Source: Euhalothece natronophila Z-M001 (GTDB taxonomy: Bacteria > Cyanobacteriota > Cyanobacteriia > Cyanobacteriales > Rubidibacteraceae). From it: a stretch of DNA of 64,000 nt. The notes below the pieces were generated by a model. The model saw only the letters and a list, made by a program, of their open reading frames with translations. It did not search any database and was not told the origin of the DNA. Made by a program: the position numbers and the translations under genes. The DNA lies in assembly GCF_007904085.1 (NCBI RefSeq), contig NZ_CP042326.1:3224001-3288000 (forward strand). The letters are read 5' to 3'. Position 1 is the first letter of the stretch. Every line of letters begins with the position of its first letter. Positions 14,491 through 17,359 of the stretch are shown one piece after another.

Positions 14491-16128
14491 TTATCCTTCC
14501 TTTTGCCCTAATTGTCTTAAGCGTCCAATCAGATGCTTTGCTAGACGATTAAACCAATGCTCAATCAGGGTGTCTTTCCCGCCCCAAGCTGGGAAGGCGG
14601 TTCCGACAGAGGTAATACTATCATAAACAATAAACTGAGCTACCTTTTCTCCTTGACGCTGTGTTGCTGAATATATCATTTGTAAGGGATAAGCTAAATT
14701 ACTGAGAAAAGGGATAAATCCAATTCCAAAGGCAACCCAAGGTAAACGTTGACCCTGGAGACTGGCTTCAAGCATTCTGAAGCTAGTGTAAAGAAGTCTG
14801 ATAATCATGCCCCCACTTGCCAGTAGAAACACAAGGGTAATCTCATTGATTAATCCTGCTGCATAGAGACTGGGAAGTAAAGTATATCGAATCACTTTCA
14901 CAGGAATTTTAAGGGCGACATGAACCCCAAAATCATTGAGATAATCACTTCCTTGTTCATACTGAAAACGATGAACTAATTCTTCTGCCTGTTTTGTGGT
15001 AATTTGCTCTCGTTCTTCCCAAACCCGAATCCGATTAATAACATATTTGCGAGCTAAAGCTAAGCGATATCGATGAGACCAAGTATATTGCCACAGCGAT
15101 CGCAGCGCTTTTTTATAATTAAAACGATGTACTTGATAGATGATATATTTTGGGAGCTTGAGACAGAGAAGATAAACAGTAATCTGGCAAAATCGACGTA
15201 ATTCTCTGCTATACCAAGCTAAAGGATGATTTTGATACCACTGTGCTGTCTCTAGAGAGATATTACCTTTTTTTCGCTGATATTCAATACTGGCAATTGT
15301 TCGCCCCATTGTTTTCCAGCGTTGTTGATGATAGGCTAACTCCTTTGTCCATAACTGAAGATTGGTATAACACTCAGAACTTAGTTCATCAATAAGGACA
15401 GAACTGCGAGTTTCCAGATAACGTTTTAGTTTATTGATATCAACATCATCAAATAAGGCTTTTCTACGATGAATAGCTTGCGGTAAATAGAAATTAAATA
15501 GTATAAGCGGATTAATAGGGAATAAGGCAGGTACACCAGACTCTAGATCAATCCAAGCAAACTGATGATGGTGAGGGAGATTTTCGGTCAAAAGGAAGTT
15601 ATTAAATGCTGAGGGATTCCCTTTCCCCACTTGCCACAACATCCCATGAAAACCAGATTCAAGCAAATGCCTGTGCAAGGGGTTCATAATTTGCTCTAGT
15701 TGCTCAGAAAGTTCACTGTTAGCCTCTTGCCCACTAAAAGGGTTAGACAGCGCTACCGGTCGCCCTGCAATAAATTCTGTGTCTAGTAAATAGGCACGAG
15801 TCTTAACTTCCCAACCCACATCTAAAGCATTACTAACTTTGAGGTAAGAGCCAAACCAAACTTTAACTAATTCCGTTAGAATTTTGCGACGATAATACGC
15901 ACACCAAAGAGCATCTTCATTCCAGATATAAGGATTTGGTGCGCCAAAGAAAAAATAGTGAATCAGATGAGTAATTGGTTCGCCAAAGAAAATCTTGCGA
16001 GCAATCGTTGTTCCCTCGAAATCAAGCCCATAAACACGCCCAGAACGACCAGCCCCTAATAATCGTTGCTCAGGGGAATTTGCCACATCAGGAATCGGAA
16101 GTTGCTTATTTCGGGGAATAAAAGTCAT
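14491..16128 (-). CDS. kinase-fold membrane protein, probable pseudokinase
   Basis: A 545-residue protein with an N-terminal kinase-like lobe: glycine loop LLGAGRSGRVYGLDFEG (about 23-40) followed by ARKIF, where the Lys fits the ATP-binding lysine. The expected catalytic loop appears as GNPSAFNNFLL and a metal-binding DLESG follows, but the catalytic Asp of H-x-D-x4-N is not present. The C-terminal half is basic and helical, with two membrane segments (about 420-460 and 475-500). It resembles bacterial lipopolysaccharide/ABC1-type kinases only distantly. An ATPase-dead anchor or an atypical kinase are both possible. Confidence 0.6.
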   Translation of the reverse strand: MTFIPRNKQLPIPDVANSPEQRLLGAGRSGRVYGLDFEGTTIARKIFFGEPITHLIHYFFFGAPNPYIWNEDALWCAYYRRKILTELVKVWFGSYLKVSNALDVGWEVKTRAYLLDTEFIAGRPVALSNPFSGQEANSELSEQLEQIMNPLHRHLLESGFHGMLWQVGKGNPSAFNNFLLTENLPHHHQFAWIDLESGVPALFPINPLILFNFYLPQAIHRRKALFDDVDINKLKRYLETRSSVLIDELSSECYTNLQLWTKELAYHQQRWKTMGRTIASIEYQRKKGNISLETAQWYQNHPLAWYSRELRRFCQITVYLLCLKLPKYIIYQVHRFNYKKALRSLWQYTWSHRYRLALARKYVINRIRVWEEREQITTKQAEELVHRFQYEQGSDYLNDFGVHVALKIPVKVIRYTLLPSLYAAGLINEITLVFLLASGGMIIRLLYTSFRMLEASLQGQRLPWVAFGIGFIPFLSNLAYPLQMIYSATQRQGEKVAQFIVYDSITSVGTAFPAWGGKDTLIEHWFNRLAKHLIGRLRQLGQKEG

Positions 16129-16186: not shown

Positions 16187-16226
16187 AAAAAAAACTATCC
16201 GCTCTTACTTGTGGAAGCAAGAGCGG
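16187..16226 (-). terminator. rho-independent terminator
   Basis: Read on the minus strand, CCGCTCTT pairs with AAGAGCGG (16226-16219 with 16206-16199) around a 12-base loop that can add three more pairs. Eight T residues follow four bases later (16194-16187). It ends the structured RNA described at 16199-16396 and insulates the downstream pseudokinase gene. Confidence 0.8.
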
Positions 16227-16396
16227 TCTAGCGGGTCACATCTGATTGAAACCTGACTGCCGAGAGGAACTCGTACAGCCTGTTTTCCCCTCACTAGGGA
16301 GGAGTCAACTGACTATTAGAGAACAGCCCCGGCACACAGCCGGCATACTCCAATCAGGTGACCCATGCGTTTACTACCTGTACTCATGGGCATCAC
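16199..16396 (-). ncRNA. structured RNA, candidate HEARO / IscB-type omega RNA without ORF
   Basis: This region between murQ and the pseudokinase gene folds extensively on the minus strand. A long-range stem joins 16351-16364 with 16233-16248 (14 pairs, one AT bulge) and encloses about 100 bases. Inside is a CCGGC/GCCGG hairpin (16329-16343). Outside is a CCCATG/CATGGG hairpin (16362-16367 with 16385-16390, partly competing with the long stem). The RNA would begin at a GTGA tetramer (16396-16393). HEARO elements are known from cyanobacteria, often lack their ORF and border ATGA/GTGA. Identity as HEARO rests on my recollection of that consensus and should be treated as provisional; the structure itself is directly visible. 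Confidence 0.55.
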
Positions 16397-16465
16397 CTCC
16401 TTTCTCCCTAACCGGTTATTTAATGAACAACCTTGCTTTACACTAACACACGAATTTGGAATTGG

Positions 16466-17359
16466 CTACTTGGTTTGAGAGCTGAGTCGGTTATCAACGG
16501 CTAATTGTGCTTCTGCTTGTTCACGAGTTACTCCTTGCCACTGCATGAGGAGGGCAGTTTTTACCCGATTGCCACTTTTTTCGAGCAATTGAGAGGCTTC
16601 TTCTATCGAGAGAGGGGTTAACTCTTGGAGAATACGGAGAGCGCGATCGCGCAGTTTTTGATTGGTTACGGCCACATCTACCATACGATTACCATAAACT
16701 TTCCCCAACTTCACCATTACCCCTGTAGAAAGAATATTTAAAGCCATTTTGGTGGCTGTTCCAGCTTTCAACCGCGTGGAACCGGCTAATACTTCTGGCC
16801 CCACTAACAGCCGAATATCCACATCCACCTTCACTGTTACCTCTTCAGGAGACACACAGGCAATAAAAATTGTGGTTGCCCCCTGTTTTTGAGCGGCAGT
16901 AATTGCCCCCTGCACATAAGGAGTGGTGCCACCGGCGGTAATTCCTACTACCACGTCTTTTGAGGTAATTTGATGATGCGCGATCGCGCTTTCCCCATCT
17001 TCCACGCGATCTTCTAATCCTTCTGAACTTTTGACAAGGGCTTGTTCACCACCAGCAATAATACCCTGCACTAATTCAGGTGAGGTACAAAAAGTTGGGG
17101 GACATTCTGCTGCATCTAATACCCCTAAACGTCCACTAGTTCCAGCCCCGACATAAAATAAACGTCCCCCATTTTGGAGGGCTTCGCTAGTCAAATCAAT
17201 CGCACGGGCAATTTCATAACGAGCATTGCCAATCGCGGTTAGGGTTTTGGCATCCTCCTGATTAAAGAGTTCAACAATTTCCAAGCTAGAAAGTTGGTCT
17301 AAATTGCGGCTATGAGGGTTATTTTGTTCCGTTAAAAGGTGACCCCGAGAAGAAACCAT
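16466..17359 (-). CDS. murQ: N-acetylmuramic acid 6-phosphate etherase
   Basis: Cleaves the lactyl ether of N-acetylmuramate 6-phosphate to give GlcNAc 6-phosphate and lactate, in cell-wall recycling. The 297-residue SIS-fold protein carries GAGTSGRLGVLDAAECPPTF, where the Glu is the expected catalytic acid, and AGTATKMALNILST. The length is normal. In many cyanobacteria murQ stands without the rest of the recycling pathway, and no anmK is adjacent here. The gene ends next to the structured RNA; DUF3110 lies nine bases upstream on the same strand. Confidence 0.93.
   Translation of the reverse strand: MVSSRGHLLTEQNNPHSRNLDQLSSLEIVELFNQEDAKTLTAIGNARYEIARAIDLTSEALQNGGRLFYVGAGTSGRLGVLDAAECPPTFCTSPELVQGIIAGGEQALVKSSEGLEDRVEDGESAIAHHQITSKDVVVGITAGGTTPYVQGAITAAQKQGATTIFIACVSPEEVTVKVDVDIRLLVGPEVLAGSTRLKAGTATKMALNILSTGVMVKLGKVYGNRMVDVAVTNQKLRDRALRILQELTPLSIEEASQLLEKSGNRVKTALLMQWQGVTREQAEAQLAVDNRLSSQTK

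Follow-up and report, generated by a model that had tools for sequence, protein, structure and literature searches.

A stand-alone cyanobacterial RNA gene whose mini-ORF pairs with its own 3'UTR: a candidate translation-coupled switch

What kind of RNA is encoded on the minus strand between murQ and a 545-aa ORF in Euhalothece natronophila Z-M001? The window analysed here (the whole stretch of 64,000 nucleotides) had received a first-pass annotation, which saw in this interval an RNA gene in its own right, structured, ending at a terminator of its own and opening with a 23-codon frame, and interpreted it as an ORF-less HEARO/omega RNA. The description held, and the HEARO assignment did not. 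As we argue below, the RNA belongs to a widespread family in which a short ORF supplies one arm of a conserved stem, and we give a probability of roughly 60% to its being a translation-coupled RNA switch, whose mini-ORF would at any one time either be loaded with ribosomes or be folded with the 3'UTR.

Anatomy of the RNA gene and its place among known RNAs

The unit, at about 16433-16187 on the minus strand, is a stand-alone gene in which an extended -10 promoter, a Shine-Dalgarno (SD) sequence, a 23-codon ORF, a long-range stem and a terminator follow one another. It is flanked by murQ (16466-17359), with Pfam SIS and GKRP domains, and by the 545-aa ORF (14491-16128, minus strand), previously called a pseudokinase, which gave no Pfam match at E<=0.01. 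Every feature named in the first-pass annotation was found in the sequence, confirming the structured RNA; its boundaries (16199-16396) were wrong, since the promoter position puts the start of the unit about 37 nt upstream of the one given, and its end is the T-run. The promoter, TGTGTTAGTGT (16440-16450, minus strand), places the predicted transcription start near 16433. Among 95 cyanobacterial homologues (the loci that were fetched, not all BLAST and covariance-model matches), the pattern TGTGYTANNNT (<=1 mismatch, -95 to -35 of the SD) was present in 68, against 4.6 expected from shuffles. The 5'UTR also contains a conserved element, CCGGTTAGG (16407-16415, minus strand); its usual form, CCGYTYAGG, was found at 72 of the 95 loci when one mismatch and a distance of up to 30 nt from the SD were allowed, against 0.6 expected.

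The SD, AAAGGAGGTGATG (16391-16403, minus strand), includes 11 nt, AAGGAGGTGAT (16402-16392), complementary to the 3' end of the 16S rRNA, ATCACCTCCTT; the 16S genes end in GGATCACCTCCTTA. In the 3.52-Mb genome AAGGAGGTGAT occurs at four places: antisense to the two 16S ends, in the RNA gene, and at one ORF-less place where no start codon opening more than 5 codons lies within 30 nt. The reversed pattern also gave four matches, so SD-like 11-mers of this kind are not enriched in the genome. The claim that the RNA begins at GTGA, as HEARO RNAs do, dissolves at this point: these letters, at 16396, are the middle of AAAGGAGGTGATG, and because they belong to the ribosome-binding site their terminal position was an accident of the boundary. 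The ORF, encoding MSTGSKRMGHLIGVCRLCAGAVL (16316-16387, minus strand), runs from an ATG at 16387 to a TAA at 16318-16316, and is the 23-codon frame already seen in the first pass.

Codons 7-13 of the ORF hold region 2, CATGGGTCACCTGATTG (16351-16367, minus strand), which in constrained folds has two alternative partners: region 1, comprising the SD and the start codon, and region 3, CAATCAGATGTGACCC (16233-16248, minus strand), the 3' arm of the long-range stem in the 3'UTR. The latter pairing is the 14-pair stem reported previously, which consists of GGGTCAC-CTGATTG (16364-16351) and CAATCAG-AT-GTGACCC (16248-16233), that is, 7+7 pairs with a 2-nt bulge. An upper rod helix joins GCCGGGG within the ORF (16327-16333, minus strand) to TCTCGGC (16259-16265, minus strand). 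Behind region 3 lies an intrinsic terminator, GCTAGACCGCTCTTGC...GTAAGAGCGGATAG followed by T8 (16187-16232, minus strand), with a 12-bp stem at 16226-16199; its T8, at 16194-16187, is the strong one described before, falling just outside the boundaries then drawn. A terminator-like hairpin precedes a T-run in 91 of the 95 cyanobacterial loci.

Rfam scans of the window, the region and ten homologous loci gave no HEARO match. At curated thresholds neither the region nor the ten loci had any match, the only one in the window being a tRNA, and at relaxed thresholds only chance-level snoRNA and Dictyostelium matches appeared. In the whole genome the HEARO model (RF02033) matched at two other places, L033 (G000:C1:1482947-1483148) and L034 (G000:C1:1769115-1769316), with 68 bits each, below the 83-bit cut-off. 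Within about 30 nt downstream of each lies an IscB gene of 443-445 aa, the two nearly identical and both assigned to NCBIfam guided_IscB (RNA-guided endonuclease IscB; 446 bits, cut-off 175), and we regard these as genuine omega-RNA loci. A solitary or co-opted HEARO/omega RNA would agree with a structured RNA adjoined by no iscB or isrB ORF, as correctly noted in the first pass (the neighbours are murQ and the 545-aa ORF), in a genome that holds two iscB-HEARO loci; our RNA, however, resembles that family only in size and in having a long-range stem, differs from it in conserved sequence, matched its model at no threshold used, and is a clear member of another family, so that this reading, refuted at the level of the covariance model, keeps next to no probability. 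6S RNA was rejected as well: the true one lies elsewhere, at C1:3036611-3036795, the only match to RF00013 in the genome (97.3 bits); 6S resembles our RNA as a rod-like, single-copy cyanobacterial RNA of about 185 nt.

The description that fits is that of ncl0160, a Synechocystis sRNA reported in 2016 with 83 cyanobacterial homologues (PMC4734099). According to the part of that paper used here, ncl0160 carries a frame of 23-25 aa behind a ribosome binding site, with mostly ATG and few GTG starts and with TAA, TAG and TGA stops in 47, 34 and 2 cases; a predicted structure is in its supplementary figure. The family studied here shares the cyanobacteria-wide spread, the ORF after a ribosome binding site, the ATG/GTG start and the stop usage (TAA 54, TAG 36 and TGA 5 in the 95 loci), the range of ORF lengths being wider in our set; going by this part of the published description, the locus very probably belongs to the ncl0160 family. 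The ORF:3'UTR stem, the competition for the SD and the relatives outside cyanobacteria are not mentioned in that part of the ncl0160 description (PMC4734099). Our literature search found no other paper naming ncl0160, and none by sequence letters. Yfr6 of Prochlorococcus was rejected, as its frame of 33 aa, in the partial description used here, differs in peptide length. A type I toxin would be a hydrophobic membrane peptide; the peptides here are by eye polar or charged in their first half. RNAIII and SgrS are named as dual-function RNAs in the part of the source used here (PMC2518516). From what that part conveys, they resemble our RNA in joining a small ORF to a regulatory RNA part in a short transcript; unlike in these, the ORF here itself forms one arm of the conserved stem.

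Covariation of the long-range stem and its competing fold

A 231-nt stretch of the minus strand folds with -89.6 kcal/mol (z = -3.99; none of 200 shuffles equal), and a good fold is predicted for the plus strand too (z = -3.14; 1 of 200 shuffles), so the case for the strand rests on conservation and covariation, not on energy. In an unstructured MAFFT alignment (91 sequences; four picocyanobacteria-like and three reverse-strand rows dropped), the top eight covarying column pairs by APC-corrected mutual information were all predicted rod pairs. The reverse-strand rows (L012, L103 and L028) are matches of the palindromic rod that have no start, and were left out of the covariation, neighbour, porin, fold and ORF-shuffle counts. 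In a model-fitted alignment, which leans to the model and includes these three rows, 96.4% of cells pair, and both-side changes were found in 249 cells, compared with 51 after shuffling and at most 33 when the partner was slid. Rod helices 3-7 have both-side changes in 21 of 26 pairs; in helix 5, the upper rod helix, 98.1% of cells are paired and four of seven pairs changed on both sides. The two further modelled helices, at the SD and the start codon, have doubly changed pairs in 1 of 4 and 0 of 7 cases, and for that reason are without covariation support. The rod base, GGGTC/GACCC, is almost invariant, so covariation neither supports nor contradicts it; the GTGACCC half of region 3 is likewise nearly invariant and covaries little. 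The supported rod has its 5' arm in ORF codons 10-23 and, in the window copy, its 3' arm about 50-80 nt past the stop codon. Judged from these alignments, the stem between ORF codons 10-23 and the 3'UTR is real, and it is a new observation. At one locus, L021, the frame was lost by a 1-nt deletion and the stem was kept.

The minimum-energy fold of the window copy lacks the 14-pair stem, the start-codon hairpin being favoured by about 2 kcal/mol. When a 220-nt stretch that does not include the whole terminator was folded under constraints, pairing of regions 1 and 2 (1:2) gave -77.8 kcal/mol and pairing of regions 2 and 3 (2:3) gave -75.6 kcal/mol, the 1:2 state being also the unconstrained optimum. 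In most cyanobacteria 1:2 is weak (mean z -0.88, with 2 of 95 loci below -2), and in most of the 82 loci that could be scored (13 of the 95 could not) the rod is predicted to win, leaving the SD largely open (mean unpaired probability 0.63). We rejected the start-codon hairpin as a general cyanobacterial switch, since it is the predicted winner in 15 of the 82 and has no compensatory changes, and kept it for the window copy and for Chloroflexota. The switch half thus finds support in the window copy, a minority of cyanobacteria and Chloroflexota; elsewhere, 1:2 being weak, only the rod is supported.

Spread in cyanobacteria and relatives in Chloroflexota

The RNA gene is single-copy in its own genome. 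Of 39 relatives searched by BLAST, 37 have it (38 of 40 counting the genome studied here), G020 and G038 on the strength of 28-34 nt only. A covariance model built from 28 loci (R1) matched 97 of 291 genomes sampled across the phylum, one match per genome: 75 of the 82 from the own order, a count that takes in the own genome, and 22 from elsewhere in the class. Four small genomes gave short, weak R1 matches (E 1e-5 to 5e-3); we call them picocyanobacteria-like, a label that is a guess. Their copies (L065-L068) have a recognisable SD, a 17-codon ORF (e.g. MISSCLTQGLLIAENAG) and part of the stem, and L067 and L068 retain the GGGTC/GACCC base though most other sequence differs. A scan of named genomes with the 29-nt start motif returned at least 117 stretches, including ones from Nostoc, Calothrix, Microcoleus, Fischerella and Thermosynechococcus, and in all 117 an ORF of 17-24 codons followed; among the matches listed (80 of at least 117), one, L157, had a non-cyanobacterial title. 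Plasmids and IMG/VR viral contigs contained no match to the family. As regards neighbours, the downstream gene lies on the same strand and belongs to one family in 50 of the 95 loci, two of the small picocyanobacteria-like genomes among them (an OprB porin with an SLH domain in the member scanned); psbD is upstream in 25, and CobB-like, PALP (cysK-like) and photolyase-related genes also occur. Because the neighbours vary, the unit is an independent gene and not the leader of any one of them.

The title of L157 is Anaerolineales, that is, Chloroflexota. With up to two mismatches, the start motif was present in 11 of 298 genomes of its class, that of L157 included, and the reversed control in none. 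By eye, ten of the class loci and L230 have the mini-ORF, the ORF:3'UTR stem and a hairpin behind it, the start codon of L224 lying three bases further on. A second model built from the class loci (R2) was run on 400 genomes of the phylum and matched 118 at E<=0.01, with 47 of these at E<1e-5; two of the 47 are model members (G313 and G402), and 41 were read. Applied to the cyanobacterial phylum, R2 matched 124 of 386 genomes, recovering cyanobacterial copies at R1 places, e.g. in G000 and G190, along with false positives. On reading, the eight oddest of these matches do not belong to the family: seven are other short ORFs for hydrophobic peptides behind the same SD, and the eighth (E 0.006) is an apparent coding sequence without a fitting ORF. 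As the best of the eight reached E 1.6e-5, the Chloroflexota count was limited to E<1e-5. Seven loci from another class of the cyanobacterial phylum (L283-L289, in G116, G305, G099, G202, G241, G1034 and G170) have ORFs of 23-26 codons behind a AGGAGGTGAT SD, with hydrophobic peptides mostly like MxFSxTEKALxLILxIIxxLK and a terminator-like hairpin thereafter; they form a separate family, possibly of type I toxin-like or membrane micro-proteins.

All 59 Chloroflexota loci have an ORF of 14-20 codons within the range searched (11-26 codons), against 13.5% expected after shuffling. The SD and the ORF are complementary beyond shuffles (z<-2) in 55 of the 59; for the pairing of ORF and 3'UTR, the energy passed the same limit at no more than 30 loci, and 52 have a helix of 8 bp or longer, compared with 14.7% of shuffles. 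Several of these ORFs carry a near copy of the 16S tail, GCATCACCTCC, and L265 and L230, in which the SD region reads GGTGATGCCC, the ORF has GGGCATCACC and GGTGATGCC(C) lies past the stop, look like textbook three-part switches. The predicted competition between 1:2 and 2:3 is stronger in Chloroflexota than in the window copy. The Chloroflexota ORF would also carry an anti-SD against its own SD, giving a predicted three-way switch that the folds also indicate in the window copy. The beginning of the ORF, with SD and start excluded, resembles the cyanobacterial copies better than 40 of 40 shuffles at 39 of 59 loci, a figure that is partly circular, the loci having been chosen by a pattern or model that contains the motif. 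The clearest case across the phyla is L268 against L069, with about 60 aligned columns from the 5'UTR through codon 9, and the N-terminus x[DE]SSKxMG is similar in both phyla. The 5'UTR element is a weak link between them, occurring at 4 of the 59 loci; when the UTR was compared by itself, 5 of the 59 were more similar than shuffles. Taken together, the likeness appears better explained by descent or transfer than by convergence.

The mini-ORF, the proposed switch and its rivals

The ORF is open in 94 of the 95 cyanobacterial loci, with 17 (nine loci), 23 or 24 codons, where 5.1% would be expected after shuffling the sequence behind the start. Its residues are far less constant. Over 61 distinct ORFs, chosen as 23 codons long with Leu at 17, the overall pN/pS was 0.80; by section it was 0.98 (codons 2-8), 0.87 (codons 9-17) and 0.35 (codons 18-23), and the overall values for frames 1 and 2 were 1.21 and 1.14. 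No base of codons 5 and 9 varies, and residue 11 switches between L and Q along with the 3'UTR base that it pairs with. Some groups lack the last six codons, and in several of these the stem-forming sequence persists. The mini-ORF ends after 17 codons, with the stem-forming sequence continuing, in L065-L069, L071, L072, L083, L084, L110 and L163; in L083 and L084 the stop lies inside the loop of a CGGCTG...GCCG hairpin. Because SD, start, frame and stop are kept, whereas most residues follow the pairing or drift, selection seems to favour translation and structure over the exact peptide, and we infer that it is mainly the act of translating the ORF that is selected. A weak signal of peptide-level selection is possible at the C-terminal end, in codons 18-23, although wobble pairs in the stem could produce the same pattern. 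The conserved frame, used earlier to call the RNA a peptide gene, is therefore no proof of selection on the peptide.

The alternative, that the RNA is the mRNA of a functional microprotein of 17-24 aa whose 3' structure only stabilises or tunes it, has to be weighed against these data. The kept frame, start and stop, the distance from start to stem of 23, 26 or 32 nt, in steps of three, at 91 of the 95 loci, the N-terminus shared by both phyla and the low pN/pS of codons 18-23 speak for a peptide; a pN/pS near 1 over codons 2-17, a residue 11 that varies with a 3'UTR base, an end at 17 or 23 residues according to group while the stem is kept in some of both, and a peptide without any Pfam match speak against it, and we consider this reading rather unlikely. 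Nor do we see more than a slim chance that the RNA is a trans base-pairing regulator, for instance of the neighbouring SLH porin mRNA, with an incidental ORF. A porin-family gene does lie downstream on the same strand at the 50 loci mentioned, and among the 45 loci at which a porin start was found (e.g. L008, L014, L035 and L067) all 45 leaders have GTGTGAGG within 40 nt of the start codon and 39 have GGTGTGAGGA. These are complementary to the Yfr1 motif, CACUCCUCACACC, as given in the part of the publication drawn on here (PMC4734099), so the porin mRNAs are likely sRNA targets already. Against this reading, no porin adjoins the RNA in the window or in those sister genomes that were read, and the ORF is too well conserved to be incidental.

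A cis attenuator of the next gene, made of leader peptide and terminator, is very improbable. Leader-peptide attenuators of the trp/his type have a short ORF, mutually exclusive 1:2 and 2:3 helices and then a terminator. Our locus shares this order, its alternative helices being predicted, and in the window the next gene lies on the same strand. Unlike those attenuators, it is stand-alone, its SD takes part in the alternation, no regulatory codon run was seen in the ORF, and no downstream gene is conserved: which gene comes next differs between species, and the commonest one, the porin, is found at 50 of the 95 loci; of the 59 Chloroflexota loci, 16 have a next gene that points the other way (a phosphorylase in 9, a phosphofructokinase in 7).

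The translation-coupled switch accommodates what is observed at the level of sequence, namely the conservation, the covariation of the rod, the persistence of SD, frame and stop, and the 1:2 complementarity in the window copy and Chloroflexota. A transcript of about 245 nt would run from its own promoter to its own terminator, and the strong 11-nt SD would load ribosomes onto the 23-codon ORF. As the second half of the ORF pairs with the 3'UTR, a ribosome reading it must open the rod. At least two nearly isoenergetic folds are predicted: 1:2 would bury the SD and AUG, and 2:3 would form the rod and leave the SD open. We infer a mutual control of loading and folding because ribosomes that enter at the strong site have to melt a conserved stem in order to translate the short ORF. 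The output would then be the state of that stem, and it might be read through the 3' strand, once freed to act on other RNAs, or through the peptide, the stability of the RNA, or ribosome capture or occupancy. A bolder version, which we offer as a speculation and hold to be doubtful, is that the device is an ancient sensor of free 30S subunits common to Cyanobacteria and Chloroflexota: the SD complements the 16S tail over 11 nt and the Chloroflexota ORF nearly copies that tail, so the RNA's own anti-SD and that of the ribosome would compete for one SD. A ribosome that won would open the rod as it translated the mini-ORF, and so expose the 3' strand. The anti-SD of the ORF may, in addition, be similar to the part of the 16S rRNA to which the GTPase Era binds. 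If the sensor were real, the signal would be ribosome availability, and neither a metabolite nor a codon.

Beyond what is described for ncl0160, the new elements are the covarying ORF:3'UTR stem, the kept frame in which non-synonymous changes are almost as common as synonymous ones, and the Chloroflexota homologues. A widespread cyanobacterial RNA gene, for which neither an Rfam match nor a function was found, appears to be built as one interlocked device, in which one half of a covarying stem is coding sequence and the SD matches the 16S tail over 11 nt, and a second phylum seems to have the same device together with a mimic of that tail. An orphan sRNA thus becomes testable with single-codon mutants, and the family may represent a class of RNAs that signal by being translated and not by the peptide made.
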